NCBI GenBank assembly: GCA_013414765.1
Contig: CP058708.1
Span: forward strand, 4,694,748-4,758,747
Direction: 5' to 3'
DNA length: 64,000 bases
Origin: Candidatus Accumulibacter cognatus
GTDB taxonomy: Bacteria > Pseudomonadota > Gammaproteobacteria > Burkholderiales > Rhodocyclaceae
Shown: piece after piece, positions 1,467-49,516 of the stretch
Position numbering within the stretch: position 1 is the first letter of the stretch
How the letters are laid out: each line of letters begins with the position of its first letter
Notes under the pieces: generated by a model
The model's database searches: none
What the model saw: the letters and a program-made list of their open reading frames with translations, nothing else
Told to the model about the DNA's origin: nothing
Made by a program: the position numbers and the translations under genes

Positions 1467-1572
1467 GTATTCCTCACGAAAATGATGAAGTGCAGTTGGG
1501 ACCATGGTGACGCACCAGGAGGGGGCCAGAAAACATTATTGAAGCACCAACTCGGGGCGACCAATGACGTAC

Positions 1573-28450: not shown

Positions 28451-28575
28451 CGGGTTCCTCACGGGTTGGTCATGAAGGCAGGAGATGTCCTGACCGGTGC
28501 ACTTCGAATCTACGGTCGGTGGCGCCAACCAGGACATCTGGACGAGCAGGCGCGCGCGGCGCTTATGGACAGGGA

Positions 28576-30293: not shown

Positions 30294-32048
30294 TTATTCG
30301 CCGATGATCTTGCGCACCACGTCGGTCATCGAAAGCACGCCGACCGGCTGATCCTTCTCGGTCACCACTAGGCGATGCATGCGCCGGGCCGTCAGCAGAC
30401 TGACCGCATCACTCAACAGCATGTCGGCATCGCAAGTCGCGCAACCTGGGGTCATGACTTCCCTGGCCAGCATCGCGCGCGCCTGATCCGGTGTCCGGCC
30501 CTGCCGCGCCAGCACCATATCGGTCTGCGATACGACGCCGACGGCCATGCCCTGCTCATCCATCACCACCACCGCATGAATTTCCTTGTCCACCATGATC
30601 TTGGCGACGGTGCCGACGGTATCGTCCGGCGTGCAGGAGATGATGCCCCGATGCATCAGATCGCGAACCCTGGTGCCATCGTCTGCAATGGTCAGCGCTT
30701 CGCCCTCGGCAATGCTCGGCAGCGGTACGGACATCGGATAAGGCGCCGGTGTGGTATGGACGTCGCCCTTGGGTAGCGTCGGGTGCACCATCGCAACGGG
30801 TGGCTTGCCACTGGCGCCCTGACCGAACTCGGTGGCGCCGATCAGCACCGACATGTTGCCGTGTGGATGTTTGTTGTCGTGCATCAACTGATGGGCAATC
30901 GGTAACTCCTCGTAAGTGAAGACCCGCGACATGCAGGGATCGAGCAGGCCGCGCAGCGCCAGCTCGTTCATCTGGTTGGCCTGCTCGGTATTGGCAAAAT
31001 GCGAGCCTTGCAGGCGCTTCTGCCGCATCCACAGATAGCGCAGATCAACCGTCGCGTTATAGCCCGTGGTGCCGGCGCAGACGACCACCATGCCGCCGGT
31101 CTCGCAAACGAAGATCGACGTCGGGATGGTCGATTCGCCGGGATGCTCGAAGACGATGTTCGGCGCCCGCTTCTCGCCCAGCACTTCCCAAATCTTCGCG
31201 CCAAAGGAGCGCACGCCCTTCAGCCACTTGGCATAACCGGCATTGTCCTTCCAGTGCGGGAGCATTCCCCAGTGATCGAAGTCATTGCGGTTGATGCAAC
31301 CTTTGGCACCCAGCTTCATGCAATAGTCGAACTTGTCCTCGCCCGAGACCATGGCGACCGACGTTGCACCGACCGCCTTGGCGATCTGGATCGCCATCGA
31401 TCCGAGGCCGCCAGCACCGCCCCAGATCAGCGCGACATCGCCCTTCTTGATCGAGCTGGCACCCCAGCCATGCAGCATCCGCCAGGCGGTGGCCGCAACC
31501 AGCGTATACGCCGCCGACTCCTCCCAGGTCATGTGCCTGGGCTTGGGCATGCACTGCTGGGCCTGCACCCGGGTGAACTGGGCAAAACTGCCATAATTGG
31601 TTTCGTAACCCCAGATTTTGAAGGTCGGCGAGTACATCGGATCGCCACCTTTCTTGACCCACTCGCAATTGCGGCTGTACTGACCGCAATGCATCACCAC
31701 TTCGTCACCGACCTTGACGTTGGTGACATCCTTGCCGACCTTGTAGACGATGCCGGACGCATCGCTGCCGCCAATATGAAAGTCCTCGGGTTCACCGCCC
31801 TTGTTGCGGGCAGCGATGACATTGACGGGAATGCCGAGTGCTGCCCAGACATTGTTGTAGTTGATGCCGGCGGCCATCACATAGACCAACACCTCGTCAT
31901 CAGCGATCGATGGAGTATTGACCACTTCTTGCTGAAACGCTTCGGTGGGTTTGCCAAAGCGGTCCTGGCGGACCAGCCAGGCGTGCATTTTCTCCGGGAC
32001 TTCGCCTAAGGGAGGCTTTTCACCTAATTCATACAATTGTTTGCTCAT
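30294..32048 (-). CDS. ccr: crotonyl-CoA carboxylase/reductase with C-terminal CBS-domain pair
   Basis: 584 residues; ordinary Ccr is about 430. Residues ~1-430 are a standard Ccr: NADPH site [20 protein letters not shown], and family blocks [51 protein letters not shown] and [13 protein letters not shown]. It catalyses NADPH-dependent reductive carboxylation of crotonyl-CoA to ethylmalonyl-CoA, the key EMC step. After a Pro-rich linker two CBS domains follow (~459-510 [20 protein letters not shown] and ~528-584 [20 protein letters not shown]). CBS pairs usually bind adenine nucleotides, so allosteric control by energy charge is inferred. ATG 32048 follows AGGAG. Last gene of the EMC operon, overlapping meaB by 20 bases. 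Confidence 0.95.
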
Positions 32049-33078
32049 CAAGATACTCCTTTGTGGTTAGACTGCTTGGTTGGTTTACCGACAAAAATCT
32101 GGAGAGAATATGCTTTCGCATACGCTCGTATTCTTCGAACTGATTGAATCGATTTTCTCTCAGCCGCTCGCCAATAACGGTTTGGCCGCCAGCCAGCTCC
32201 AGGCCAAAAGTTCCGAATTCCTCTTTCAGCAAGCGCATTACCCAGGCACTCTGATGGCGAATCCGCAGTTTGTCCAGCAAGCCGGCATTGGCGAGAAACT
32301 TGCGGTGCCTGTCAAAATGATCGTGAAACGGTTTGATCCCAGTATTCATCGTCGCACTCACCAGACATACCGGATAATCCCAATTCTCCCGGCGATCCTG
32401 CCGGGACGCACTGCGACCGATTTCGCTGGCCGTCTTGCGTGCCGGGGCACCCAGGTCAGACTTATTGACCGCGAAAATATCCGGAATTTCGATGATCCCC
32501 GACTTCAGATACTGGATGGTATCCCCTGAGGCCGGCTGCGCGACGTAACAGACCGTATCGCCGATTTCGGCAATATCGATCTCGGTCTGGCCGACACCGA
32601 CCGTCTCGATCACGACGATATCGAAACAGGCCAACATCAGCCAACTCATCGGCCAGACCTCGGTAGCCACCCCACCCAACTGGTTGCGATTGGCCAGCGA
32701 GCGGATGAACAGACCTTCGTCGTGCGACGAGTTCTTGATACGGATGCGATCCCCAAGCAGAGCGCCACCACCCAGCTCGGGGCGGCTGGACGGGTCCACC
32801 GCGAGCACCCCGACCGTCCTGCCTGACAAGCGCCACTCGCGAATCATCGCGGCAACGAGCGAGGACTTTCCGGCACCAGGAGGCCCAGTCACCCCGATCA
32901 GGTGACCATCATTCAGCCAGCGCTCGCCGGACAGTAAAGCCAGCAGGCTTGCCGAACGGTTGCGCGCCTCGGCAAGCTTGTTGTCCAGCAGATTCAGGCC
33001 ACTGGCAACCGCCGCCCGCTCTCCGCGCATGATCCGTACCGCCAACTGCTCGGGATCGGGAAGATGGACTGGAGTCAT
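32029..33078 (-). CDS. meaB: MeaB, G-protein chaperone of the B12-dependent mutase
   Basis: 349 residues from ATG 33078; a TTG eight codons earlier is an alternative that overlaps ecm. SIMIBI GTPase of the MeaB/ArgK family: P-loop [41 protein letters not shown] and NKSD. It protects and reactivates adenosylcobalamin mutases. Immediately downstream of ethylmalonyl-CoA mutase, so that mutase is the probable client. Confidence 0.95.
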
Positions 33079-33085
33079 CGATCGG

Positions 33086-35104
33086 TCACTGTGGCAAGGC
33101 AAACCGTTCGAGACCGTTGCATTCGCGGATCACGTCCACCATGTCCTCCATGATGGCATTCAAATTGAAGTCCTTGGGCGTGTAGACCGCGCGCACACCG
33201 ATTGCCAGCAATTTGTCGGCGTCTTCCCGCGGAATGATTCCGCCAGCAATCACCGGCACATTCGAGAGATCACGCAGGCGCAGTTCCTGAAGAACCGACT
33301 CCACCAGCTCCATATGACTTCCGGAAAGGATCGACAGGCCAACCATATGCACCCCTTCCTCCTGAGCCGCCTGGGCAATCTGTTGCGGCGTCAGCCGGAT
33401 GCCATCGTAGACGACCTCGAAGCCGACATCCCTGGCCTTGACGGCCACCTGTTCGGCCCCATTGGAATGCCCATCCAGTCCGGGTTTGCCGACCAACAGT
33501 TTGAGCGGGCGGCCGAGCGCATGGCCCGTACTGGCGACCCGGGTTCTCAATTCGGTGACTTGATTCTTCTTGCCCAGGACTTCGCGGCTGTCAATGGCAA
33601 TGTCGATCCCCGTCGGTGGCCTGAACTCGCCGAATACCGCACGCAATGAATCGCCCCATTCGCCGGTGCTGACTCCCGCCAGCGCACAGCGAATCGAACT
33701 GGGCATGATGTTTTCGCCACTCCTGGCGGCATCGCCGAGACCCTGCAAGGCAGCCCGAACGTCGGCATCGTTGCGGTTCCGGCGATGCGCCTGCAGCCGC
33801 TCGATTTGCTCACGCTCGGCTGCCGGATCGGTCTTCATGATGGCGCCATCACTGCCCACGGTCAGCGGCGATTCCGCCGTTTCCTGGAAGCAGTTCACTC
33901 CGATGATCTTTAGGTCGCCCGACTCGATGGCACGCAAGCGGTTCATGTGACTGCCGACCAGTTCGCGCTTGATGTAGCCGGATTCGATCGCGGCAATGAT
34001 CCCGCCCTGGGCTTCGACATTCTCGATTTCCCTTTGGGCACCCTCGACCAGCTCCCTGACCTTGGCGGCAATGACCGGTGACCCATCGAGAATATCGTCG
34101 TACTCCAGCAGGTCGGTTTCGAAAGCCATCACCTGCTGCATCCGTAGCGCCCATTGCTGATCCCAGGGGCGCGGCAGACCCATCGCCTCGTTCCACGCCG
34201 GGAGCTGGATGGCGCGGGCTCTTGCGCGTTTCGAGAGCACCACCGACATCATTTCGAGAACGATTCTCTGCACATTGTTTTCCGGCTGCGGCTCGGTCAG
34301 GCCCAGGGAGTTCACCTGCACGCCATAACGGAATCGGCGCAGCTTGGGATCTGCCACCTGGTAGCGGGACAGGGTCAGCTCGTCCCACATTTCGCCAAAT
34401 GCCCTCAGCTTGCAACACTCTTCGACGAAACGTATGCCGGCATTGACAAAGAACGAGATCCGCTCGACGACCTGCGGAAACGCCTCCGGAGCGATTTCAC
34501 CGGAAGCCTTGACCCGATCGAGAACCGCCATCGCGGTGCACAGGGCGTAGGCCAGCTCCTGAACCGGTGTCGCCCCCGCCTCCTGCAGGTGATAGCTGCA
34601 GATATTGGTCGGATTCCATTTCGGTACATGCCTGACCGTGTAATTGATCGTATCCGCGATCAGGCGCATCGATGGACCCGGCGGATAGATATAGGTACCC
34701 CGCGAGAGATATTCCTTGATGATGTCGTTCTGGGTGGTGCCGCTCAGCCTGGTCGGATCGATGCCTCGCCGTTGCGCCAGGCCGATGTACAGTGACAAGA
34801 GCCATGCCGCCGTGGCATTGATGGTCATCGAGGTATTCATCTGATCGAGCGGGATCTGGTCGAACAACTGATCCATATCCTCGATCGACGAGATGGGCAC
34901 ACCGACCTTGCCGACCTCGCCCCGCGCCAGTGGACTGTCGGCGTCGTAACCGGTCTGCGTCGGCAGATCGAAGGCCACCGATAATCCCGTCTGGCCTTTG
35001 GCAAGATTGGTTCGATACAGGGCGTTGGATGCCCTGGCCGAGCTGTGACCGCTGTAGGTCCGCATCAACCAGGGTTGATCGCGATTTTTTCGGGAGGCAG
35101 ACAT
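33086..35104 (-). CDS. ecm: ethylmalonyl-CoA mutase (B12-dependent, MeaA type)
   Basis: 672 residues, single-chain mutase with an N-terminal acyl-CoA barrel ([30 protein letters not shown]) and a C-terminal cobalamin domain with [20 protein letters not shown] and VIAGGIIP. Converts (2R)-ethylmalonyl-CoA to methylsuccinyl-CoA. Assigned Ecm rather than methylmalonyl-CoA mutase because it is shorter and lies between ccr/meaB and mcd. Three bases separate its start from the preceding hydratase gene. Confidence 0.95.
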
Positions 35105-35106
35105 GA

Positions 35107-36288
35107 CTATCCCCTTTTCCTGATCAAGAGACGTCTTTCGATCTCAAAAATCTTCTCATCAATCTTTTCCTTGTCCATCGCCTTCTTGTCGTTTTCCTTG
35201 ATGAACAGGTCCCCGCCATGTCTGGCAAGAGCGGCCGACGCACTGATGTTCTTGACGCCAATCAACTGAAAACTGACGATGCCGAACTTCGCGCCCAGCT
35301 CGCCCGGAGCGTCTTCGACCGCCAGTACCCGCGACAGGGCGGCAACGGTATCGCCGGCGATCGACGGCTGGGTGTGATAGCCCTCGGTAAAGCCGAGCTC
35401 CCAAACGCTGTTTTCACTGACATCGCGACTCGCCAGGCCCTCTAGCCAGGCGAAGACCAGGCCCCCATAAACGATCGGATCACCGCTCATCTTGCCCGAC
35501 AAGCCGGAACTGAAGACCCGATCGAAATGCAGCGGATGGGTATTGCCCACCGCATAAGTCAGCGGCAGATGCTCGTCGGTGATCGTTCGGCCGTTGGCGT
35601 GGACGATGATGTCGCCAACGGAAAAATCCTCGAACCAGGAATTGGGACCGGTCAATCCGGACGGAAGCCGTTCCGGGAAGTCCGGCAGAAAGACCTCGGC
35701 CTCGTCGACCCAGGGGAAAGCGGGCATTACCGCAGCCGCCGGCAAGGGGGTGGTTGACGGACGGTCTCCCTGGCCGGCAACCATGATTTTACGTTCGTAC
35801 TGCAGCACCACCTGGTCGTCCTGGTTGATGCCCAGGGTCCGGATGGTCACGATACCCGGCTTGCCGGCACCGCGCTCCTTACGGTCGATGACCTTGGTCA
35901 GCGAGCGAATGGTATCCAGCTCATGAACCGGCCGCAGGTACTGGGCATCGTAATAGCCAAGGTTGGCCATCGCCTTTTCCGAGTCATTCTGCACACCCAG
36001 CGAGAGAACGACATTGAAGACCATCTGCGGTGATGCCACCAGACCCGCGAAGCCGCTGGCCCTGGCATATTCCTCATTGAGGTAGAGCGGATTGCACTGC
36101 ATGTAGGTCCGAGCAAAGGACTCCATCTGAGCACGGAGGAAGGTGAAACCACGCGGGTGAACAAACACCTGCCCCGGCACGAACTCCTCCAGATAGCGGC
36201 CATAGTGCGGATGGCGGGCTTGCTGCATGTCCACCTGCACTTTGGCGGCCAGTTCGGCTTGTGGTGGGAAACGAATTGCCTGCAACAT
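35107..36288 (-). CDS. MaoC-family hydratase of the EMC operon (mesaconyl-CoA hydratase-like)
   Basis: 393 residues with two hot-dog halves. The first carries RGFTFLRAQMESFARTYMQC and ASPQMVFNVVLSLG; the second has PLTYAVGNTHPLHFDRVFSS and GDPIVYGGLVFAWL. The N-terminal tail (~30) and the charged, Lys-rich C-terminus (KENDKKAMDKEKIDEKIFEI) are extra. By position it should hydrate mesaconyl-C1-CoA to methylmalyl-CoA. The window also encodes a shorter (351 residue) canonical Mch at 46448, so this paralogue may have a different substrate or stereochemistry. Confidence 0.8.
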   Translation of the reverse strand: MLQAIRFPPQAELAAKVQVDMQQARHPHYGRYLEEFVPGQVFVHPRGFTFLRAQMESFARTYMQCNPLYLNEEYARASGFAGLVASPQMVFNVVLSLGVQNDSEKAMANLGYYDAQYLRPVHELDTIRSLTKVIDRKERGAGKPGIVTIRTLGINQDDQVVLQYERKIMVAGQGDRPSTTPLPAAAVMPAFPWVDEAEVFLPDFPERLPSGLTGPNSWFEDFSVGDIIVHANGRTITDEHLPLTYAVGNTHPLHFDRVFSSGLSGKMSGDPIVYGGLVFAWLEGLASRDVSENSVWELGFTEGYHTQPSIAGDTVAALSRVLAVEDAPGELGAKFGIVSFQLIGVKNISASAALARHGGDLFIKENDKKAMDKEKIDEKIFEIERRLLIRKRG

Positions 36289-36307
36289 GAAATTCTCCTG
36301 TTACCGT

Positions 36308-36384
36308 GAAAGTCACTTCAGCGACTCACGAATTCCCCCCTTTCCAAGACATGGGGAAAGGGATCTAGGGAAACGGTCATGACC
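36308..36384 (+). repeat. dispersed palindromic repeat, copy B
   Basis: Starts GAAAGTCACTTCAGCGACTC, has an internal hairpin (CCCTTTCC with GGGAAAGGG) and ends GGAAACGGTCATGACC. Shares start and end modules with copy C. Lies in the 131-base spacer between the hydratase and mcd genes of the EMC operon. Confidence 0.65.
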
Positions 36385-36419
36385 GTTGGCGTGACGATGT
36401 GTCGGGAAGTTAGCCGAAC

Positions 36420-38090
36420 CTACACCGCATCGATGAGAGAGCGGGCGATCACCTTCAGAGCCAGCGTTTCTTCGGCTCCCTCGAATATCGACAGCACACG
36501 GGCATCGAGGAAATAACGGCTGACCGGCGACTCCTCGGCATAACCCATTCCCCCATGAATCTGCATCGCTTCGCGGGTGAGCCACTCGGCTGTCCGGCAG
36601 GTGAACAGTTTCACCATGCTGGCTTCCATCTGCCCCAGGCCCTGATCCATCAAACTGCCGACGGCGTAGGTGAATTGGCGGGAAACGGTCAGCAGCGTCG
36701 CCATGCGCGCCAGCTTGACGAGGGTGAGCTGAAAATCGCCGATCGGCTTGCCGAATGCCTTGCGTTCCTGGGAATACGAAACCGCCCGTTCGAATGCGGC
36801 CTGCATGACACCAATCGCACGCGCAGCCGTCTGAATGCGCCCGCCGGCAAATCCGGCCATGGTGAAGTAAAAGCCCTTTCCTTCGCCCGCCGGCCCACCG
36901 ACCAGATTTTCATCGGGAACAAAGACATTGTCGAAGAAGACCTCGTAGGAATGCATCCCGCGATAACCGATGGTCGAAATCGCCCGACCGGTCAATACGC
37001 CACCCTGTACTTGTCGATATTCAAAGTCGTGCCCTTCATACGAGTCCTTTTCGACCAGGAACATGCTGAGCCCCCGATGGCCGAGCGAGCGATCCGGATT
37101 GGAGCGCGCCAGAACCAGCAGAAGTCCAGCCTTGCCGGCCATGGTGCACCAGGTCTTGACGCCGTCGAGGATCCAGCCGCCATCGCACTTGCTCGCTTTG
37201 AGGCGCATGGCGGCGACATCGGAACCGGTATCCGGTTCGGTGACGGCAATGGCACACAAGGGATCGCCGAGCGCTACCTGGGGCAGCCATTTTTGCCGCT
37301 GCTCTTCGGTTCCCCCCTTGAGCAGGGCGCGGCTGAGGATTTCAGGGCGCGTGATCAGGCTCCCCGCTGCACCGAGCGAGCCGCGCGAAAGCTCCTCGGT
37401 GACCACAATCATTCCCATGTTATCTTCATGGTCGTCGCTCTGGAGGCCACCGTAACGCTCGGGGATCGACAGACCGAAGCAACCCATTTCGGTCAGCGGA
37501 TCGAGAATCTCCGGCGGAATGATCCGGTCTTCCCGATGGATCTCCTCGGCCAGAGGCATCACCACGTTGGTCGCCAGTTTGCGGAAGGTGTCCTGCATCA
37601 TCATGGCGTGCTCGTCGAGCAGGTAGGCACCGCTGACGCCATTCAAGGCAATAACTTCCCTGCCCAGTGCTTCCAGATTGCCTGCATCCAGTTGCGTCTG
37701 GCAGAAACGGCTGAGCGTCGAAGAGGCCAGGTCCGCCACATCGGCGTCGCTCAGACCGAAACTCTGCGGTCGCGCCCGCAAGCGATTATGGATGTTCTGC
37801 AAGGCCTCGGCACAAAATACCCGGGCCATCCGCTCTTCCAGGCAGACGCCACCACTCGTCGCGGCCGCCGCCTTGCGGGCATATTCCGCCGCAAAGCGGG
37901 CTGCGGTCGATTCAGCGGCACACCAGGCCAGATCGAAGCTGGCCATCTGGTGCTCGTCCAGTTTTTCATTCGAGACACCCTTGTCGCCGATGCATTGCTG
38001 CTTGATCCAGATCAGCGATTTCCTGATCACCGAATCGGCTGATTCGAGATACTGCAATCCGTCCTGCATGTCACTCGTGACCTCAGTCAT
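36420..38090 (-). CDS. mcd: methylsuccinyl-CoA dehydrogenase (acyl-CoA dehydrogenase family)
   Basis: 556 residues. The ~150-residue N-terminal extension before the acyl-CoA dehydrogenase core is characteristic of Mcd and distinguishes it from ordinary ~380-residue enzymes. The core shows CAIAVTEPDTGSDVAAM (flavin site), QTAARAIGVMQAAFERAVSY and the C-terminal QIHGGMGYAEESPVSRYFLD. Oxidises methylsuccinyl-CoA to mesaconyl-C1-CoA with electrons passed to ETF. 21 bases after the DUF6986 gene, in the same operon. Confidence 0.94.
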   Translation of the reverse strand: MTEVTSDMQDGLQYLESADSVIRKSLIWIKQQCIGDKGVSNEKLDEHQMASFDLAWCAAESTAARFAAEYARKAAAATSGGVCLEERMARVFCAEALQNIHNRLRARPQSFGLSDADVADLASSTLSRFCQTQLDAGNLEALGREVIALNGVSGAYLLDEHAMMMQDTFRKLATNVVMPLAEEIHREDRIIPPEILDPLTEMGCFGLSIPERYGGLQSDDHEDNMGMIVVTEELSRGSLGAAGSLITRPEILSRALLKGGTEEQRQKWLPQVALGDPLCAIAVTEPDTGSDVAAMRLKASKCDGGWILDGVKTWCTMAGKAGLLLVLARSNPDRSLGHRGLSMFLVEKDSYEGHDFEYRQVQGGVLTGRAISTIGYRGMHSYEVFFDNVFVPDENLVGGPAGEGKGFYFTMAGFAGGRIQTAARAIGVMQAAFERAVSYSQERKAFGKPIGDFQLTLVKLARMATLLTVSRQFTYAVGSLMDQGLGQMEASMVKLFTCRTAEWLTREAMQIHGGMGYAEESPVSRYFLDARVLSIFEGAEETLALKVIARSLIDAV

Positions 38091-38111
38091 GGTTCATCCC
38101 CTTCCTGGTGG

Positions 38112-39554
38112 CTATTGTTTGGCCCGATTATTGACAATGCGAACGAAAGATCGCGAGCGCAGCTCTTCCAGGGTGATCCCTGTCGCCAGCACTTCCTGCT
38201 CGGTGATCGCTCCGCACGCCATTCCCCGCAGGAAGAAGTTCAGCAGGCCCTGCCCTGTTGCCGCATCGTCGAAGGTATTGCCCACCAGTGTCGCCTGGGC
38301 GGCCTTGTTCAGGAATGCGTTCAGCCTGGCCGAGGCATCCTGCAGACCGCTGAGGAAGAAGGTATCGACCGCCGCATAGCGCACCGGCAACTGCCCCGGA
38401 TTGAGATCCCACCCCTGATAGAAGGCGTGCCGCATCGAGTGCATGATATTGTCGTAGTGCAGCTTCCAGGCAGCATGCACGACGGCGCGATTCTCATCCA
38501 TCTGCTGGGCCGTCAGCACGGCGTCCCTGGCGGCCTTGTGGGGACCGATCGGCATGCTGGTGGTCGCACCGTCGCTGATGGTGATGCCGGTTCCGGCGAG
38601 GCTGACCTGCAACACATGGCGGGCAAAATCGCAGGCCGGATGGGTGTGACTCTGGTGTGCCGCCGTGATGTTGCACGAAGCCGTGTAATCGTAGGTCCCG
38701 AAAATCGCCGAGCGGCAACGGCCGCCAGCCGCTGCGACCAGCAGCGGCACCGTGTTTTCGCCCTTGAAATTGATGATCGACTGGGTGGTTTCGATCATGA
38801 TTTCCATTCTCAGAGAATCCTTCGGAAAGCCGAGTCGGGCTTCGAGATTCTCGAGAATCCTGGCGCAGGTCGAAACTTGCGTCGCGGTGACCACCTTGGG
38901 AAGCGTGACGATGAAATTCTGTGGCAATTTGCCACCGGTATTCTCGGCCAGGCGGGTCAGGAAAATGTCCAGCGTACGAATCGCGCGAACCTTGCACTCG
39001 TCCGAAAACGTTTTAATGCGAATACCGACAAATGGCGAGAGCAGATTCTCGCGCATGCCTTTGGCGACTTCATCGGCAGCCGCAACGGCATGGCCGTCTT
39101 CCTCCACGTCGGGACGATTGCCGTAGCCATCCTCGAAATCGATGCGATTGTCCTCGATCGGCTCGGTCTGCAGCTTTTTCAGGACCCGGTTGAACACCGT
39201 GTAAGCCAGCCACGCCGCCGGTTTGACCCCGCGCACCTGCTCAGGATTGCTTTCCAGGGCACGCGTCAGGCTTTCCTGGTAGACGGGGTTGGTCGGCAGC
39301 GTCTCCGACCCCGGCAGACCCAGAACGCGGCCAAACACCAGGTAGTTGGGCGCATAGGTGTCGAGAGTCTTGAGTGCCACTTCCCCCAATTTGGAGGCGA
39401 AGCCGGCCTTGAACAGATTGGCACCGCCGTAAACCGTGTGCACCGGCTGCCTCTCAAAGGAGTCCGCCGGGTAATCTGACTTGAAAACTGCATTGGAATC
39501 GTGCAGCTCGCTGCAATAGGAATTCATTTCGTCGCGGGTCAGCGTGAGCTTCAT
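38112..39554 (-). CDS. DUF6986 aldolase-like protein (HpcH/CitE superfamily), first gene of the EMC operon
   Basis: 480 residues. The pattern QPVHTVYGGANLFK, DNRIDFEDGYGNRPDVEEDG, VGIRIKTFSDE, FIVTLPKVV, EIMIETTQSI, GTYDYTASCNITAAHQSH and FYQGWDLNPGQLPVRYA is that of DUF6986. This family has a TIM-barrel fold related to citrate lyase beta subunit and malyl-CoA lyase. RIDFED and ETTQS hold candidate Mg and catalytic acids. Function not established. Being promoter-proximal in the EMC operon suggests a C-C lyase or thioester-related role in this pathway (inference). Confidence 0.75.
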   Translation of the reverse strand: MKLTLTRDEMNSYCSELHDSNAVFKSDYPADSFERQPVHTVYGGANLFKAGFASKLGEVALKTLDTYAPNYLVFGRVLGLPGSETLPTNPVYQESLTRALESNPEQVRGVKPAAWLAYTVFNRVLKKLQTEPIEDNRIDFEDGYGNRPDVEEDGHAVAAADEVAKGMRENLLSPFVGIRIKTFSDECKVRAIRTLDIFLTRLAENTGGKLPQNFIVTLPKVVTATQVSTCARILENLEARLGFPKDSLRMEIMIETTQSIINFKGENTVPLLVAAAGGRCRSAIFGTYDYTASCNITAAHQSHTHPACDFARHVLQVSLAGTGITISDGATTSMPIGPHKAARDAVLTAQQMDENRAVVHAAWKLHYDNIMHSMRHAFYQGWDLNPGQLPVRYAAVDTFFLSGLQDASARLNAFLNKAAQATLVGNTFDDAATGQGLLNFFLRGMACGAITEQEVLATGITLEELRSRSFVRIVNNRAKQ

Positions 39555-40263
39555 GTGTTGCCTCCGAAATACGTTAATCGTTGCTCAATACACGTTCGAC
39601 ATTGCGCATGCAAATATCCCGACGCCATGGTCGGGTTCCATCAACAGTTAAGGCGGACCCCGGAGTCAAGACGAACGACGGCTTCAATGGGGTGGCTAAT
39701 TCGCCAACCGATGACCTTGTGGTCATCGATGAGCGCGATCAGAGGCGCGCAGGCATGGCCTGGGCGAATGCAGGGAGCCGGGCTCCAGGCCGGGTAGGGT
39801 TCGACCAGATAAACGCCACGGAACAGGCAAGGAAGAGAAGAGTGCTTGGGAAAGGAGTGGGCGGAGGATGGCCCCGCTGCCCTCTCGACCAAGGGCTTGG
39901 ACAGCGGCAGACGGATGAACCGCTGGCGATTGACGGGATCATCCCGCGTTCTGCTCATGCCGCGAAACGGTTGCCTCAAAGGCTGCCGAATATATTCCGA
40001 GAGGAAGGGTCGACAATGCAGCAGAACTCTTGATTCGGCCAGTGAATGTCCAGGTTGCACATGCACCGAGGCAAGCACCAGCCCCGCCCGGACGCACTGC
40101 TGCACCACAGCCATCGCCTCCCCCTGGTCAACCCACTCTCGCCAAATCACTACACAGCGCCATAGGATTCTAGCGCCTCACGAGGTGTCCCCGCAAGCTC
40201 AATCGCGAGGATTTATATCGGGAACAAACGGTACCTGGGAAGGTGCCGGTGGAAGGGTGGTCT
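39555..40263. other. 709-base stretch without a supported gene
   Basis: It carries the EMC operon leader near 39555-39640 (no clear promoter assigned). Frames on both strands (for example minus 39641-40150, 169 codons) have no ribosome site of quality and no recognisable domain. Part of the minus frame (ALIDDHKVIGWRISHPIEAV) faintly resembles an IS3-type integrase core, so this may be a decayed insertion sequence. Confidence 0.4.
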
Positions 40264-40333
40264 GAAAGTCGCGTCAGCCACTCATGGGTCGCCCCGCTCC
40301 CGCAAACGGGGGTGGGAAACGGTCATGACTTTC
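40264..40333 (+). repeat. dispersed palindromic repeat, copy C (best preserved)
   Basis: Bounded by terminal inverted repeats GAAAGTC (40264-40270) and GACTTTC (40327-40333). Core GCGTCAGCCACTCATG, an internal hairpin (GCTCCCG / CGGGGGTGGG region) and GGAAACGGTCATGAC. Seventy bases, REP/MITE-like, just beyond the 3' end of meh. Confidence 0.7.
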
Positions 40334-40378
40334 ATGATCGGGGGGTGCCTGGAAAAGTGCTGACTGTGGTGATGGCCG

Positions 40379-41239
40379 TTAGACTGGTGCGAGTTCGACG
40401 CTGGCGCGCATCGCCGTCGCACCGTCGGGCGCTTGTGCCTCAAGAGCGCATTGCCTTTCGTTGACCGGGGTGCAGACGATGCGGAACGGCGCCAGGTCGA
40501 ACAGCGGCGTCAGACCACGGAAGCTGAATTCCTGCACCGGTCGTGCCACTTCCTGACGAACCAGTTCCATCAGCAGCACCGCGGTCAGCGGTCCGTGCAC
40601 CACCAGGCCCGGATAGCCCTCTTCCTTCATTGCATAGGGACGATCGTAGTGAATCCGGTGCGCATTGAAGGTCAGCGCCGAGAAGCGGAACAGGAGTCTC
40701 GGGTCCGGCGTCACGATGCGTGCACAGGCGCCTGCCGGTAACGGCGGCCATTCGTCGAGCATGCGCGGACAGGCCACCGCGGGCCCTGGTTCGCGATAGA
40801 CGATGTCCTGCTCCTCCTCGATACACAGCCTGTCATCCTGATAATAGCCGTAGCACACCGAAACGAAGGCCAGCTTGCCGGAGCGGCCCGATTTCAGCCG
40901 GATATCGCGAATGGTTGCCGCACGTCGCGCCGGCTGGCCAATCAGCAGCGGATGATGGAAACGCATGCGCGCACCTGCAAACATCCGCCTCGGATAGGGA
41001 ATTGGTGGCATGAAACCGCCGCGCTGTGGATGTCCGTCGATGCCAAGCAGCATCTGCGGTACCCTGGGCAGAAAATAGAACCAGTGCCACAGCGGAGGCA
41101 GCGCGCTCCCGGTCCCCAGACAGGTCTGTGTGTCGTCGAGCATTGCCGCCGCTGCCAGCGCCAGTGTCTGGCTCAGATCGTCGTCAGTAGTCTCCTGGCG
41201 GCCAATCCATTCTGCGTAGTCGGTTGTCACGTCGTTCAT
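40379..41239 (-). CDS. meh: mesaconyl-C4-CoA hydratase (Meh-type, FAS1-like dehydratase fold)
   Basis: 286 residues from ATG 41239, chosen for its spacing to GGAAAGG. An N-terminal hot-dog part has WHWFYFLPRVPQMLLG, GGFMPPIPYPRRMFAG and EEEQDIVYRE. The second part carries LTFNAHRIHYDRPYAMKEEG and GLVVHGPLTAVLLMEL with the catalytic Asp/His region. This is the family of Chloroflexus mesaconyl-C4-CoA hydratase, which makes (S)-citramalyl-CoA. Divergent from smtA and next to mct, the gene that would supply its substrate, so the assignment is strongly supported by context. Confidence 0.85.
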   Translation of the reverse strand: MNDVTTDYAEWIGRQETTDDDLSQTLALAAAAMLDDTQTCLGTGSALPPLWHWFYFLPRVPQMLLGIDGHPQRGGFMPPIPYPRRMFAGARMRFHHPLLIGQPARRAATIRDIRLKSGRSGKLAFVSVCYGYYQDDRLCIEEEQDIVYREPGPAVACPRMLDEWPPLPAGACARIVTPDPRLLFRFSALTFNAHRIHYDRPYAMKEEGYPGLVVHGPLTAVLLMELVRQEVARPVQEFSFRGLTPLFDLAPFRIVCTPVNERQCALEAQAPDGATAMRASVELAPV

Positions 41240-41470
41240 GCCATTCATCCTTTCCGGAGTTCCTTGAACGGTTCTGCAAGTAGCGTACAGCATACGGCCA
41301 AACGCGGGGGTTTACGCACACGCGTAGCGCCAAAGCAGGGCAATCCTCAGATCTTTGCGCCAAGGAAACTGATTTGCTCATATACTGTTTCGCTGTCGTC
41401 GGTGCAGCGCCCGTTTCGAGTAAGGCCTTGAGGGGTTTTCCGGCGAGCTTGTCGGGGAGATAAAACAGTG
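41240..41470. promoter_or_regulatory. divergent control region between meh and smtA
   Basis: Contains TACGC-ACAC-GCGTA (41313-41326), a perfect inverted repeat, and a TATACT -10-like box at 41381-41386 pointing to smtA, without a good -35. GGGGAGA near 41454-41460 is the smtA ribosome site. Confidence 0.4.
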
Positions 41471-42814
41471 ATGAAAGGGGAAGCAGCTTCGACGGAGTCT
41501 GTGCCGCTGCACACCGGACTTGCGGGCAACGTCGAGGCCGTGCCGACAGGCGGTCAGTCCGTCCGCGAGCAGTCGAAGCAGGACGATGCAGATCCGGATC
41601 TCTCGACCGAGAACGACCGGCTACCGATGAGCGGCCTGCGCATCATCGATGTCGGCACCTTTCTCGCCGGCCCTTATGCGGCGTCGATTCTTGGCGAGTT
41701 CGGCGCCGAGGTGCTGAAAGTCGAGCACCCGATCGCCGGTGATCCGATGCGCCGTTTCGGAACAGCATCGAAGCGTCACGATGCGACGCTGGCCTGGCTC
41801 AGCGAAGGCCGCAACCGGAAATCGGTCACCCTCGATCTGCGCCAACAGCAGGGCGTCGATCTGTTCCTGAAGCTGGTCGCCAAGTCGGATGTGCTGATCG
41901 AGAACTTCCGCCCTGGCACGATGGAGGAATGGGGACTTGGTTGGGACGAGTTGAGCCAGGCCAACCCGGGCCTGGTGATGCTGCGCGTCTCGGGCTATGG
42001 ACAGACCGGACCGTATCGCAGACGTTCGGGTTTTGCGCACATTGCGCATGGTTTTGCCGGACTCTCATACCTCGCCGGTTTCCCCGGTGAAACGCCGGTG
42101 GTTCCCGGGACCGCACCAATGGGGGACTACATGTCCAGCCTGTACGGCGCAATCGGCATCCTGCTGGCCCTGCGCCACCGTGAGGCAACAGGACAAGGCC
42201 AGATCATCGACATCGGTATCTACGAGGCCGTGTTTCGCCAGATGGACGAAATTGCCGCCGCTTATGGCCTGTTCGGCAAGGTACGCGAGCGCGAAGGCGC
42301 CGGCAGCTTTGTCGCCGTTCCACATGGCCACTTCCGCACCATCGACGACAAATGGGTCGCCATTGCCTGCACCACCGACAAGATGTTCGAACGCTTCGCG
42401 GCAGTGATGGGCAAAGCGGAACTCGCGGCTGCCGATCGCTACGGCAATCAACGCAAGCGCCTGGCAGCGCGCGACGAGATCAACCGGATCGTCATCGAAT
42501 GGGTCGGTTCGATGCCTCGCAACGAGGTCATGAAGCGCTGCATCGACGGCGAAGTGCCGATCGGCAAGCTCAACAGCATCGCCGACATCTTCGAGGACGA
42601 GCATTTCCAGGCGCGCGGCAACCTCGCCCATCTACAGGAGGAAGGTCTGGGTGAAGTGGTGATTCCTGGCGTGGTACCGACGCTGTCCGAAACGCCGGGC
42701 AGGATTTCCAACCTCGGCCCCCCACTCGGTAACGCGACCTATGAAGTGCTGCGCGAGCTACTCGGGATTTCGGCAAAGGAAATCAGGCGGCTACGACAAA
42801 ACAAGATCATCTGA
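41471..42814 (+). CDS. smtA: class III CoA-transferase, succinyl-CoA:malate/citramalate CoA-transferase subunit A-like
   Basis: 447 residues. About 50 N-terminal residues are polar and poorly ordered; the CaiB/BaiF fold begins at [19 protein letters not shown]. Conserved blocks: [58 protein letters not shown]. The catalytic Asp is probably in [12 protein letters not shown]. Together with SmtB it would move CoA from succinyl-CoA to malate (or citramalate). The pair smtA-smtB beside mct, mcl, mch and meh reproduces the Chloroflexus 3-hydroxypropionate gene set. Confidence 0.85.
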
Positions 42815-42836
42815 ACAGGCCATTGCGAGGATTCCC

Positions 42837-44066
42837 ATGACTACCCCTGATCCCGCCGTGACCCGGCTGCCACTCGAAGGAGTTCGCGTCATCGATGCGG
42901 CAACGGTCATCGCTGCGCCTTACAGCGCGACCATCCTGAGTGAATTCGGCGCCGAGGTATTGAAAGTCGAGAACCCGATCGGCGGCGACCCGATGCGTTA
43001 CTTCGGAACTCCGACCAAACGCAAGGACACGCTCGCCTGGCTCAGCGAAGCGCGCAACAAGAAATCGGTGACCCTCGACCTGCACCTGCCCGAGGGCGTC
43101 GAGCTGTTCAAACAACTGATTGCAAAGTCTGACGTGCTGTGCGAAAACTTCCGCCCCGGCACCCTCGAAAAATGGGGTCTCGGCTGGGAGGTTCTGCGCG
43201 CGGTCAATCCTGGCCTGATCATGCTGCGCGTCACCGGTTACGGCCAGACCGGCCCCTACCGCGACCGTCCCGGTTTTGCGCGGGTCGCGCACGCGGTCGG
43301 CGGCATTGCCTTTCTCGCCGGCATGCCAAGGGGAACCCCGGTGACGCCGGGGTCGACCACCCTTGGCGACTACCTGACCGGCCTCTACGGTTGCATCGGC
43401 ATCCTGATGGCCTTGCGCCACCGCGAGCGCACCGGCCAGGGGCAATATATCGATGCCGCCCTGTACGAATCGGTATTTCGCTGCACCGACGAACTGGCAC
43501 CGGCCTACGGCATGTTCGGTCGGATTCGTGAGCGGCACGGACCGACCCATAACGATTTCGCCTGCCCGCACGGCCATTTTCCGACCAAGGACGACGGCAA
43601 GTGGGTGGCCATTTCGTGTGTCACCGACAAGCTTTTCGAGCGCTTGGCGATCGCCATGGGACGCCCCGAACTGGCCGCGCCACATGTCTACGGAAACCAG
43701 AAGACACGCCTTGACAACCGTCATGATGTCAATGAAATCGTCCGCGACTGGTGCGGTTCACTACATCGCGACGACATCCTCAACCGCTGCTTTGCCGCCG
43801 GTGCGCCAGCCGGTCCATTGAACAGTATTGCCGACATTTTTGGCGACCGGCAGTTCCACGCCCGCCGTAACCTGGTGGCTATCGACGAGCAGGACATCGG
43901 TGAGACCGTGATTGTCCCGTCAGTGCTGCCGCGTCTGTCGGTTACGCCGGGCCGGATCAAGCACCTCGGTCCACGGCTCGGGCAACATACCGAAGAAGTA
44001 CTCGCGGATCTGCTCGGTCTGGCCGCAAACGAGATCGATGAACTGCGCAAGAAGCGTGTGATCTGA
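42837..44066 (+). CDS. smtB: class III CoA-transferase, SmtB-like partner subunit
   Basis: 409 residues from ATG 42837 with GAGGA upstream. Clearly paralogous to the preceding SmtA (shared [51 protein letters not shown]), with the probable catalytic Asp in [12 protein letters not shown]. Forms a heteromer with SmtA in Chloroflexus. It supplies (S)-malyl-CoA for the lyase encoded next but one. 22 bases separate it from smtA. Confidence 0.86.
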
Positions 44067-44090
44067 ACAGCGAAAGGATGGGTGGATAGA

Positions 44091-45311
44091 ATGGATGGAA
44101 TCCTCAAGGGCTTGCGCGTCATCGAAGGCTCGGCTTTTGTCGCCGCCCCGCTAGGCGGCATGACGCTGGCCCAGCTCGGAGCGGATGTCATCCGTTTCGA
44201 CCCGCTTGGCGGCGGCCTCGACCATCGCCGCTGGCCGCTCACCCTCGACGGACGACACAGCCTGTTCTGGGCGGGCCTGAACAAGGGCAAGCGCTCGATT
44301 GCCGTGGACTTTCGCAAGCCGCGTGGCCAGGAGTTGTTAACGCAGCTGATCTGTGCGCCGGGAGAAAATGCGGGTCTGTTCAGCACCAACTTTCCGGCCA
44401 AGGGCTGGCTCGCTTTCGAGGCGTTGCAGGCACGACGTCCGGATTTGATCATGGTCAATCTGACCGGACGCCGTGACGGCAGCTCGGAAGTCGATTACAC
44501 GCTGAATCCGCAGCTCGGCCTACCCTTGATGACCGGCCCAAACTCGTCGCCGGAGGTGGTGAACCACGTCTTTCCGGCCTGGGATTTCATCAGCGGCCAG
44601 ATGATCGCCCTTGGCCTGCTCGCCGCCGAAAGACACCGGCGGCTGACTGGCGATGGACAACTGATCCGCCTCGCATTGAAGGACGTGGCCCTGGCCATGC
44701 TCGGCAATTTTGGCATGCTTGCCGAGGTGATGATCAATGACACCGACCGGCCCAGACAGGGCAACTATCTCTACGGTGCCTTCGGCCGCGATTTCACCAC
44801 GCTCGACGGCAAGCGCCTGATGGTCGTCGGTCTCACCAGCATGCAGTGGCATTGCCTGATCAAGGCCACTGGCCTGCAAGAGGCCATCGCGGCACTCGGC
44901 ACCCGGTTGGGTCTCGACCTCGAAGACGAAGGTCATCGCTTCCGTGCCCGACAACAGATTGCTGCGCTGCTCGAACCGTGGTTCCATGCACGCACGCTCG
45001 CCGAAGCCGCCACCATCCTCGATGCCCACCGTGTCAGCTGGGGTCCCTATCGCAGTGTGCGTGAAACCATTGCCTGCGACCCCGATTGCTCGACCGACAA
45101 TCCGCTGTTCACCATGACCGAACAACCCGGGATTGGCGCCTACCTGATGCCCGCAACACCGCTCCAATTCAGCCGCGTGCCACGCCTGCCGGCGACGCCG
45201 GCGCCACGCCTTGGCGAACACACCGACCAGATCCTGCTCGAAATCCTCGGTTTGAGCGAGGCTGAGGTCGGCCGCCTGCACGACGCGCGCGTCGTTGCCG
45301 GTCCGGATTGA
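44091..45311 (+). CDS. mct: mesaconyl-CoA C1:C4 CoA-transferase (intramolecular)
   Basis: 406 residues from ATG 44091 (GGTGGA upstream); a GTG three codons earlier is possible. CaiB/BaiF fold, distinct from Smt[62 protein letters not shown]. The catalytic Asp is probably in [12 protein letters not shown]. The pattern is that of Chloroflexus Mct, which shifts CoA within mesaconyl-CoA from C1 to C4. This enzyme is the branch point between the EMC pathway and pyruvate formation here. Confidence 0.88.
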
Positions 45312-45370
45312 AAACCGCTGTGTCAACGCCGTCGACTCCACCCGCATTTCTTTCGTCAGGGATAACCGCC

Positions 45371-46414
45371 ATGAAGCTACCCATTCATTTCTACAAGCCA
45401 CTCGCCATCGGCGCTCCACAGCCCCTGCGTGAACTGCCGGTGCGGCCGGAACGGATGATCCATTTCTTTCCGCCGCACATCGAGAAGATTCGTGCCAAGG
45501 CGCCCGAAACCGCGAGGTCTTGTGACGTCATGTGCGGCAACCTCGAGGATGCCATTCCCATCGATGCCAAGGACGCAGCGCGCGCCGGTTTCATCGAACT
45601 GCTGAGCAAGCATGACTTCGGTGATACCGCGATGTGGGTGCGCGTCAATGCCTTGAACAGCCCGTGGATACTCGACGACCTCGAACAAATCATCAGACAT
45701 GTCGGCAACAAACTCGATGTGATCATGATTCCCAAGGTTGAAGGCGCGTGGGACATTCATTTCGTCGACCAGTACGTCGCACTGCTCGAAGCCAAGTACG
45801 CAGTCAGGAAACCGATTCTGCTGCATGCCCTGCTCGAAACCGCGCAGGGCGTGACCAATGTCGAATCCATTTGCGGTGCCAGTCCGCGCATGCATGGACT
45901 GAGTCTCGGCCCGGCAGACCTGGCCGCCTCGCGCGGCATGAAGACCACCCGCGTCGGAGGTGGTCACCCCGGCTACGGCGTCCTTGCCGACCCCGAACCC
46001 GGCCAGAACCAGCGTGCCTTCTTCCAACAGGACCTCTGGCATTACACCGTTGCGCGTATGGTCGATGCCGCGGTGGCACATGGTCTGCGATCGTTCTACG
46101 GTCCCTTTGGCGACCTCAAGGACGAAGCCGCCTGCGAGGCGCAGTTCCGCAATGCCTTCCTGATGGGTTGCTCTGGCGCCTGGTCGCTGGCACCGAACCA
46201 GATCGCCATCGCCAAGCGCGTCTTCAGCCCCGACGTCAAGGAAGTGCTGTTCGCCAAGCGCATTCTCGAAGCGATGCCCGACGGCAGTGGTGTGGCGACG
46301 ATCGACGGTAAAATGCAGGACGATGCGACCTGGAAACAGGCCAGGGTGATTGTCGATCTGGCGCGCCTGGTGGCCAGGCGAGACCCGGAACTGGCTGCTG
46401 CATATGGACTGTAG
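45371..46414 (+). CDS. mcl: malyl-CoA / methylmalyl-CoA / citramalyl-CoA lyase, Chloroflexus type
   Basis: 347 residues from ATG 45371 (AGGGA upstream), CitE/HpcH TIM barrel. Motifs [67 protein letters not shown] and [20 protein letters not shown] are present, the last resembling the Chloroflexus enzyme very closely. In that organism one lyase handles malyl-CoA, methylmalyl-CoA and citramalyl-CoA. Here it can serve EMC cleavage to glyoxylate plus propionyl-CoA, or citramalyl-CoA cleavage to pyruvate plus acetyl-CoA. Confidence 0.93.
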
Positions 46415-46447
46415 GATCTTCTTTCAACACCTTGGGGAGAGCGTTCA

Positions 46448-47503
46448 GTGAGCGAAAAAACCAGACATGGCAACTTTTTCGAAGATTTCCGCGTCGGGCA
46501 GAAGATTGCGCACGCCACACCGCGGACCCTCACCGAGGGCGACGTGGCACTGTACACCGCCTTGACCGGTTCGCGCTTCGCCACCTCAGCCGACACCTTC
46601 GCGCACAGCATAGGCTTCCCGCGGGCACCCATAGACGATCTGCTGACCTTTAACATGGTCTATGGCCGAACCGTGCCGGACATTTCGCTTAGTGCCATCG
46701 CCAACCTCGGTTACGCGATTGGCCGCTTCGGCCATCCAGTCTATCCGGGCGACACGCTCAGCGCCGATTCGACCGTGATCGGGCTCAAGGAGAACAGCGA
46801 CGGCAAGACCGGTATCGTTTATGTGCGTTCGTGTGGAGTCAACCAACGCGGGCAGATCGCCCTCGATTACTGTAGCTGGTTCATGGTCCACAAGCGCGAC
46901 CCGGCTTCGCCGCCTCCGGAAACCGTCGTGCCGGAACTGCCAACCGCCGTCGCGGCTGGTGATCTGCGGGTTCCGACCGGGATCAGGATTGAACAGTACG
47001 ACACCGCCTTGTCCGGTAGCACCGACCTCTGGAATGACTATGAGGTCGGCGAATGCATCGACCACGTGGACGGAATGACCATCGAAGAAAGCGAACACAT
47101 GATGGCCACCCGTCTGTACCAGAACAACGCGCGCTTACACTTCAACCAGCAGGCCGCAACAACCGGCCGCTTCGGACGCCGCCTGATCTACGGTGGCCAC
47201 ATCCTCAGCCTGGCGCGCTCGCTTTCCTTCAACGGGCTGGCCAATGCCTTCAGTATCGCAGCGATCAACGGTGGCCGGCATGTCGCGCCCGCCTTTGCTA
47301 GTGATACGATCTACGCTTGGTCGGAGGTGCTCGAACAACTGATCGTGCCGGGACGCAATGACATCGGCGCGCTGCGGCTGCGTACCGTCGCGACCAGGGA
47401 CCAGCCCTGCGCGGATTTTCCCTACCAGACTGCCGATGGCCGTTACGATCCGAGCGTGCTGCTTGACTTCGACTATACGGTGCTGATCCCGAGAAGAGAG
47501 TAG
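46448..47503 (+). CDS. mch: mesaconyl-CoA hydratase (methylmalyl-CoA dehydratase)
   Basis: 351 residues from GTG 46448 with GGGGAGAG upstream; the canonical family length is about 343-350. Double hot-dog MaoC protein: NFFEDFRVGQKIAHATPRT, APIDDLLTFNMVYGRTVPDI, NLGYAIGRFGHPVYPGDTL, VIGLKENSDGKTGIVYVR. Reversibly hydrates mesaconyl-C1-CoA to (2R,3S)-methylmalyl-CoA. It ends the five-gene plus-strand run smtA-smtB-mct-mcl-mch. Confidence 0.93.
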   Translation: MSEKTRHGNFFEDFRVGQKIAHATPRTLTEGDVALYTALTGSRFATSADTFAHSIGFPRAPIDDLLTFNMVYGRTVPDISLSAIANLGYAIGRFGHPVYPGDTLSADSTVIGLKENSDGKTGIVYVRSCGVNQRGQIALDYCSWFMVHKRDPASPPPETVVPELPTAVAAGDLRVPTGIRIEQYDTALSGSTDLWNDYEVGECIDHVDGMTIEESEHMMATRLYQNNARLHFNQQAATTGRFGRRLIYGGHILSLARSLSFNGLANAFSIAAINGGRHVAPAFASDTIYAWSEVLEQLIVPGRNDIGALRLRTVATRDQPCADFPYQTADGRYDPSVLLDFDYTVLIPRRE

Positions 47504-47663: not shown

Positions 47664-48260
47664 ATGTTCCAAGTCCGAATACACGGTCGCGGTGGCCAGG
47701 GTGTGGTGACGGCTGCCGAGATGTTGTCTATTGCTGCCTTTGAGGAAGGCCGCCACGCACAGGCCTTCCCGAGCTTCGGTTCCGAACGTACCGGTGCCCC
47801 GGTAGTCGCCTTCTGCCGTATCGCCGACCAGGAGATCCGGCTACGCGAACCGATCATGGAACCCGATGCCCTGATCATTCAGGACCCGACGCTGCTGTTC
47901 CAGGTCGATGTCTTCTCCGGCCTGAAAAAGGGCGGTTACATCCTGATCAACACCACCCGCAGTTTCGATGAACTGGGTCTTGGCGATTTCCTCCGCGATT
48001 GGCCGAAGGAGAGATTGTGCACGGTCCCGGCTACCGATCTCAGTCGCAAGCATGTCGGTCGTCCGATGCCCAATGTCCCCTTGCTCGCCGGTTTTGCGGC
48101 CGCATCAGGCATCATCCGGCTGGAGTCGGTGATCATGGCGATCAACGACAAATTCTCCGAAAAGGTGGCCAGCAACAATATCACTGCCGCTACCGAAGCT
48201 TATCAGTTCGTCCTCGACGAAATCGAGAGCATACGTCAAGAGGAGGCCGCACATGCTTAA
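47664..48260 (+). CDS. porG: 2-oxoacid:acceptor oxidoreductase, gamma subunit
   Basis: 198 residues with the gamma-family start VRIHGRGGQGVVTAAEML, FPSFGSERTGAPV and RPMPNVPLLAGFAAAS. Part of a thiamine-diphosphate, CoA-dependent, oxygen-sensitive oxidoreductase. GGAGG precedes the ATG. Overlaps the alpha gene by 8 bases. Pyruvate is the likely substrate from the neighbourhood (mcl product, ppdK downstream); an aryl or other 2-oxoacid cannot be excluded. Confidence 0.9.
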   Translation: MFQVRIHGRGGQGVVTAAEMLSIAAFEEGRHAQAFPSFGSERTGAPVVAFCRIADQEIRLREPIMEPDALIIQDPTLLFQVDVFSGLKKGGYILINTTRSFDELGLGDFLRDWPKERLCTVPATDLSRKHVGRPMPNVPLLAGFAAASGIIRLESVIMAINDKFSEKVASNNITAATEAYQFVLDEIESIRQEEAAHA

Positions 48261-49506: not shown

Positions 49507-49516
49507 GGAATCGACG

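Follow-up and report, generated by a model that had tools for sequence, protein, structure and literature searches.

Could two acyl-CoA pathways that lie next to each other in Candidatus Accumulibacter cognatus work as one? The question arises from positions 30294-47503 of a 64-kb stretch of DNA (the window, meaning the whole stretch analysed) within a single-contig genome of 5.17 Mb rated 100% complete. Here the genes of the ethylmalonyl-CoA (EMC) pathway adjoin those for the second half of the 3-hydroxypropionate bi-cycle (the bi-cycle half), and an initial annotation of the letters alone had proposed a direct route from crotonyl-CoA to pyruvate. Reading of the frames and scanning of the proteins located all the EMC and bi-cycle genes it named where it had placed them. 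On balance, our analysis leans toward two converging modules that meet at mesaconyl-C1-CoA, with pyruvate as the exit. The basis of this reading is the identity of the genes, the retention of most active-site residues in the mesaconyl-CoA C1-C4 intramolecular CoA transferase (Mct), the recurrence of the arrangement and the presence of a single lyase above cut-off. Simultaneous expression, flux through the joined route and a connection with polymer and glycogen turnover are what we infer beyond this.

The bi-cycle half comprises smtA, smtB, mct, mcl and mch in a row on the plus strand; meh diverges from them and lies on the minus strand. Mct (44082-45311, plus) reaches 840 bits against TIGR04253 (cut-off 725) and 748-750 bits against 8apq and 7xkg. 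Nine of the eleven active-site positions described in PMC9813914 are identical in the window protein, the two changes being I74F and R104K; the residue numbering uses the best-matching of three offsets, which agrees with the ungapped alignment to solved structures. Equivalents of Asp165, Arg47, Tyr136 and Leu43 are retained, and the first three are conserved across 80/80 Mct loci, a set that keeps the 80 best among 114 relatives detected with short peptide patterns. A scan with the window Mct, complemented by a tree, places A. vicinus (97%) and A. contiguus (94%) as its closest relatives.

The lyase and the hydratases carry the remainder of the predicted exit. Mcl (45308-46414, plus), a malyl-/methylmalyl-/citramalyl-CoA lyase, is 82% identical to the Chloroflexus islandicus lyase and scores 665-676 bits against 4l7z and 6kin, which we take to be of Chloroflexus/Roseiflexus origin, versus 191 bits against 4l9y. 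The last of these is tied to Rhodobacter (PMC3832036). The enzyme is thus assigned to the Chloroflexus type, with cleavage of citramalyl-CoA as a predicted activity. The mesaconyl-C1-CoA hydratase Mch (46448-47503, plus), likewise of Chloroflexus type, gives 550 bits with 4e3e and 459 with 8hgn, an entry named beta-methylmalyl-CoA dehydratase. For the mesaconyl-C4-CoA hydratase Meh (40379-41293, minus; true start probably near 41239, by estimate), the NCBIfam scan held no curated equivalog; the assignment draws on 65% identity to the C. islandicus homologue, in matching gene order, and on 236 bits to the itaconyl-CoA hydratase entries 8huc/8khg. SmtA (41468-42814, plus) is a CoA_transf_3 protein, of the succinyl-CoA:malate type by synteny, with 78% identity to its C. 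islandicus counterpart, which has the corresponding place in the gene order, and its partner CoA-transferase SmtB (about 42837-44066, plus; start estimated from the translation) has 74%. Profile and structure-sequence scores uphold the enzyme classes first proposed, including the assignment of Mct, Mcl and Mch to the Chloroflexus type.

The EMC genes are transcribed from the minus strand in the order DUF6986, mcd, hydratase, ecm, meaB and ccr. The crotonyl-CoA carboxylase/reductase Ccr (30294-32048; 584 residues) scores 556 bits against TIGR01751 (cut-off 379) and carries two C-terminal CBS domains; a search of Creative Commons-licensed (CC-licensed) papers in PubMed Central, the scope of all our literature searches, found no paper joining crotonyl-CoA carboxylase with a CBS domain. 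MeaB, the mutase-associated GTPase (32029-33102), exceeds its Pfam cut-off (211 bits versus 23) and falls short of the NCBIfam equivalog (219 versus 241). Ecm (33086-35104) is a B12-dependent acyl-CoA mutase with PF01642 and B12-binding domains that does not reach the methylmalonyl-CoA mutase equivalog (522 bits versus 876); the genome has PF01642 at three places, this one included. Ecm is most likely an ethylmalonyl-CoA mutase, a substrate assigned from operon context and the weakest of the enzyme names. The EMC-side mesaconyl-C1-CoA hydratase (35107-36288) belongs to the MC_hydratase family (PF19315, 68.5 bits, cut-off 26.5) and is 29% identical to Mch of the bi-cycle half.

The methylsuccinyl-CoA dehydrogenase Mcd (36420-38090, minus) bears on where the two pathways could meet. 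It reached no NCBIfam equivalog, and it scores 608 bits against 8ciw, a solved (2S)-methylsuccinyl-CoA dehydrogenase, in an alignment that includes its N-terminal extension, versus 314 bits against 6es9. By this resemblance it is of the C1 type and would yield mesaconyl-C1-CoA, the product reported for the EMC dehydrogenase, unlike the C4 type of Cupriavidus/Pseudomonas (PMC12290011). Together with Mct and Mch, it supports the earlier proposal of mesaconyl-C1-CoA as a common node.

In the proposed working, acetyl-CoA or stored polyhydroxybutyrate (PHB) would be converted to crotonyl-CoA during the aerobic phase, and crotonyl-CoA with one CO2 would give mesaconyl-C1-CoA via Ccr, Ecm and Mcd. 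Mct would then shift CoA from C1 to C4, Meh would hydrate the product to (S)-citramalyl-CoA, and the Chloroflexus-type Mcl would split this into acetyl-CoA and pyruvate, which pyruvate, phosphate dikinase (PPDK) could turn into phosphoenolpyruvate (PEP) for gluconeogenesis and glycogen. Propionyl-CoA from polyhydroxyvalerate (PHV) and glyoxylate from isocitrate lyase would enter the same node via Mcl and Mch; the polymer link comes from the general biology of Accumulibacter. With Mct, Meh and a Chloroflexus-type Mcl all in the cluster, the pyruvate exit suggested at the outset appears feasible. With Mct and Meh present, drainage of the mesaconyl node to pyruvate is expected, since methylmalyl-CoA cleavage is reversible and that of citramalyl-CoA is far over on the pyruvate side; the latter has been described as strongly favoured with the Chloroflexus Mcl (PMC3832036). 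Judged from gene content, this chemistry is very likely possible in the cell, provided that a gap at the EMC epimerase is filled, and the cell may use it in vivo. The initial annotation further envisaged both parts running in reverse, which could hold for the bi-cycle half and not for the EMC pathway, since Ccr is in practice irreversible.

Genomic co-occurrence of ccr/ecm with mct/meh was put forward as a check by the initial annotation, and it is seen among relatives. A whole-genome Ccr search covered 49 of the 80 Mct loci, of which 26 are from Accumulibacter, Propionivibrio and related genomes; Ccr exceeds its cut-off in 22/26 of these versus 1/23 of the others, a SAR324 genome, with a partial 199-bit match at a contig end in one more of the others (L066). 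Stop-to-stop Ccr frames span 584-674 residues in all 22 of the 22 Accumulibacter-type genomes with Ccr and 443 in SAR324. A list of Ccr lengths limited to matches over 90% or more of the 584 query residues, and by that design blind to any Ccr without CBS domains, comprises 15 frames in 13 genomes, one of them that of the window. Chloroflexi and some others have Ccr-like matches in frames of about 1500-2000 residues, presumably propionyl-CoA synthase; no frame of that size occurs among the Ccr-like matches listed for the 26 Accumulibacter-type relatives.

Gene order tells a similar story. Within flanks of at most 10 kb on each side of mct, shorter in some loci, and counting neighbours as EMC genes at 70% identity or more, EMC genes lie beside mct in 14/26 loci and in three arrangements: upstream and minus-strand in 11, upstream and plus-strand in 2, and downstream in 1. 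Meh is present in 16/26 mct loci, and 12/26 have Mct, Meh and Mcl at the locus as well as a genomic Ccr. In Propionivibrio aalborgensis (L049) both gene sets belong to a single stretch; genes for a MaoC-type hydratase and an enoyl-CoA hydratase-like protein separate the sets, and mcd and ecm have no EMC hydratase gene of their own between them. The chief addition of this work is a natural gene set that, by sequence, recurs across much of the genus, apparently with one common lyase.

A pairing of Mcd with Mct-like genes is also found farther afield. A separate group of 34 Mct-like loci (L072-L105), from Marinobacter, SAR86, other Pseudomonadales, gammaproteobacteria and SAR324, forms one supported clade (99/96), distinct from the Mct of Accumulibacter and of Chloroflexota. 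Flanks of 32/34 carry an Mcd-type dehydrogenase of nearly full length, and the Mct-like proteins retain Asp165, Arg47 and Tyr136, position 43 being Leu or Ile. Of 369 genomes sampled across the class, 7 have an Mct match at 1e-120, and only the window's own exceeds the cut-off. Meh matches (E up to 1e-10) were found in 35/39 genomes with such an Mct (33 from the group and 6 from the class sample), one of them weak at 46 bits; in 2/6 genomes of the class sample, Meh, a lyase-like gene and Mct form an unbroken run that has no Mcd nearby. Three Marinobacter loci add a Meh relative, two of them with an adjoining CitE-like lyase, and Marinobacter litoralis unites Meh, a CitE-like lyase, a thiolase, Mcd and Mct-like genes in one stretch. 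The placing of Mcd next to an Mct-like gene thus recurs in nature, and this group may represent a methylsuccinyl-CoA catabolic route. These loci resemble the window in having Mcd-type and Mct-like neighbours; they differ in showing no match to Ccr or Ecm in any of the 34 sets of flanks and in an Mct score below the cut-off.

Several observations weigh against the joined route. The one protein scanned from the Mct-like group (L075) reaches 597 bits, under the TIGR04253 cut-off, and the function of that group is not certain. Among the closer relatives, 4/26 have mct without a Ccr above cut-off (L028, L032, L035 and L044, the last a Dechloromonas SSD3 sequence titled complete chromosome). L035 is genome G079, rated 100% complete; it is also the fourth genome in a 150-genome family sample in which Mct exceeds its cut-off in four and Ccr in three. 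Genomes with mct and without ccr show the bi-cycle half to be of use apart from the EMC pathway. No Meh lies near mct in seven of the 26 loci (L029, L033, L034, L042, L043, L047 and L071), and the flank is too short in three more; tblastn at E 1 returned nothing for Meh in those seven loci except a 40-residue match in L033 (E 0.16). A supported clade (100/95) unites five of the seven; L042 is sister to it with weak support, and L043 stands apart. Meh is also not near mct in a single-contig relative (G125), mcl and mch were likewise not found in the L042 locus, and smtA is not near mct in several loci. Published transcription work, moreover, takes the Accumulibacter EMC pathway as a source of propionyl-CoA (PMC12604563).

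Such observations invite an account in which the two neighbouring modules are used separately. The EMC pathway would then make propionyl-CoA and glyoxylate, serving under anaerobic conditions as a redox sink and as a supply for PHV; the bi-cycle half would co-assimilate propionyl-CoA and glyoxylate to pyruvate as proposed for Chloroflexus and Kentron, and net flux from crotonyl-CoA to pyruvate would be minor. We regard this account as a serious possibility that falls short of being probable. The four relatives with Mct and no Ccr above cut-off fit it, and so does the published reading of the two halves, that of EMC transcription in PMC12604563 and that of the bi-cycle half in PMC6593406. It is also favoured by an isocitrate lyase gene in the window (168-1505, minus; 802 bits, cut-off 562) and a malate synthase gene elsewhere in the genome, because of which glyoxylate need not come from the EMC pathway; glyoxylate-shunt, EMC and bi-cycle genes coexist in this genome. 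However, both halves act on one C5-CoA and apparently have a single lyase in common, and their linkage is kept across the three arrangements. Propionyl-CoA and glyoxylate made by the EMC pathway could, in addition, return to mesaconyl-CoA and thence to pyruvate.

How far the modules depend on each other turns in part on the lyase. In a profile search of the genome, one HpcH/HpaI place exceeds the cut-off, namely Mcl of the cluster, and the methylmalyl-CoA lyase step of the EMC pathway is accounted for by sequence only via this Chloroflexus-type enzyme. The only other HpcH/HpaI place reported, below cut-off, is the DUF6986 gene at the head of the EMC operon (38112-39554, minus), a CitE/HpcH-like protein with 576 bits to PF22484. 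The protein had no sequence match in PDB up to E 1, and an AlphaFold2 model built with 11 close homologues (mean predicted local distance difference test score, pLDDT, 49.5) was too poor for a fold search; it was assessed by profile comparison instead of structure. Against Mcl, hhalign gives a probability of 91% and an E of 1e-6 over 97 columns, as for a distant relative. DUF6986 and Ccr co-occur in the same 3 of the 150 family genomes, the window's own included. DUF6986 is possibly a second lyase of the EMC operon or another EMC-linked enzyme, on this sequence evidence. Either Mcl is common to both pathways, or DUF6986 serves the EMC pathway; in the latter case the operon may have a lyase of its own that would leave the modules independent, a further point against their convergence.

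The EMC arm presents one more difficulty, since no methylmalonyl/ethylmalonyl-CoA epimerase exceeds the cut-off anywhere in the genome; the best match has 44 bits versus 115. The lack of a recognised epimerase is a gap in this arm. A third account would hold that in this lineage the arm lacks a step or has changed, as its missing epimerase, DUF6986 and Ccr-CBS fusion might indicate, so that crotonyl-CoA reaches mesaconyl-CoA poorly and only the bi-cycle half works. The possession of an epimerase gene is reported to set Propionivibrio apart from Accumulibacter (PMC12604563), in line with such an account. Yet ccr, meaB, ecm and mcd are open frames, with identities of about 82-98% to those relatives for which most of the gene is available, the 44-bit match (C1:3919881-3920282) could itself be a divergent epimerase, and EMC genes are transcribed in relatives (PMC12604563). 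We consider an altered arm improbable, and retain convergence at mesaconyl-C1-CoA as the preferred reading.

Genes around the cluster may offer further ways of handling pyruvate. Downstream lie porC, porA, porB and a GltD/PorD-like fusion (47664-52152, plus), encoding a 2-oxoacid, probably pyruvate, oxidoreductase; the PorC_KorC subfamily and PRK12771 models exceed their cut-offs, and the best models for PorA and PorB remain under their equivalog cut-offs. The ppdK gene for PPDK follows (52312-55044, plus; TIGR01828, 1328 bits, cut-off 843). PorA comes after the cluster in 17/26 loci and PPDK in 16/26. The initial annotation was silent on these oxidoreductase genes and PPDK, as it was on the DUF6986 gene and the CBS domains of Ccr. 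Another pyruvate-using enzyme, alanine dehydrogenase, is encoded near the cluster (60179-61297, minus; 512 bits, cut-off 392).

A more specific physiological proposal may be put forward, tentatively and with more doubt than confidence. Accumulibacter might naturally run an oxygen-tolerant, ferredoxin-independent equivalent of pyruvate synthase, in which PHB-derived crotonyl-CoA and CO2 yield, by way of mesaconyl-CoA and citramalyl-CoA, pyruvate and PEP for aerobic-phase glycogen, with entry set by the adenylate level via the CBS domains of Ccr. If true, a pathway sketched as artificial would have a natural form, and acetyl-CoA assimilation would gain one more mode, ending in C3 and not C4. If Mct and Meh are active beside the EMC pathway, EMC expression during phosphorus removal may signal production of pyruvate and glycogen instead of propionyl-CoA. 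In a 2024 paper, an engineered mutase was sought for such a route, and the acetyl-CoA assimilation routes listed there end in C4 (PMC11599936). For the conversion of acetyl-CoA and CO2 to pyruvate that has been proposed as a design (PMC10521678), a natural and recurring gene set is now on offer.

Long antisense frames on the plus strand opposite mcd (36555-38042) and the DUF6986 gene (38115-39479) are taken as GC-rich artefacts. Rfam gave zero matches at gathering score across 26000-56000, and a tRNA scan of the window found none. Scanning of 39400-41600 gave two promoter-like signals (shuffle mean 0.7) and one terminator-like signal (shuffle mean 2.2), a result judged uninformative. Elsewhere, Mu-like phage genes (2876-8845, plus) encode a Mu transposase-type protein, an AAA-domain protein and a Mu-like prophage I protein, and a di-haem cytochrome c peroxidase/MauG-type protein is encoded at 27446-28537 (minus).

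Both halves of the locus have close counterparts in known systems. The EMC genes resemble those of the Rhodobacter/Methylobacterium type in bringing Ccr, the mutase, MeaB, Mcd and a mesaconyl-C1-CoA hydratase together in one run. In contrast to that type, the window has the Ccr-CBS fusion, the extra DUF6986 gene and a coexisting isocitrate lyase, and is without a second HpcH/HpaI lyase above cut-off or a recognised epimerase. The bi-cycle half follows Chloroflexus, with Meh, SmtA, SmtB, Mct, Mcl and Mch in C. islandicus order at 65-82% identity, whereas the window cluster adjoins EMC, oxidoreductase and PPDK genes. Each half is already known in Accumulibacter, which has been listed among carriers of bi-cycle genes (PMC6593406) and whose Mct is mentioned in PMC9813914; its EMC genes are reported as transcribed and taken as a propionyl-CoA supply in a paper whose main text does not use the term mesaconyl (PMC12604563).

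Other systems connect the same intermediates differently. Methylsuccinate degradation in Cupriavidus/Pseudomonas employs a C4-specific dehydrogenase, and Mct is not named in the text describing it (PMC12290011). The citramalate cycle proposed for Rhodospirillum rubrum likewise connects acetyl-CoA and pyruvate with mesaconyl-CoA, methylmalyl-CoA, glyoxylate and propionyl-CoA, but in the opposite direction and via free citramalate and mesaconate (PMC8307300). The initial annotation had seen no certain description of a linkage of the two pathways, and its chief correction is that the joined route is already in print: the reductive citramalyl/ethylmalonyl-CoA pathway, an in-silico design of 2021, converts acetyl-CoA + HCO3- + 2 NADPH + ubiquinone (UQ) to pyruvate + 2 NADP + UQH2 + CoA at -39 +/- 9 kJ/mol (PMC10521678). 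Our search of the CC-licensed literature found no paper on a natural combination of EMC, Mct, Meh and Mcl. The locus described here would carry out the same reactions with the same net equation as that design, and in it the genes, known from their sequences, occur together in nature.

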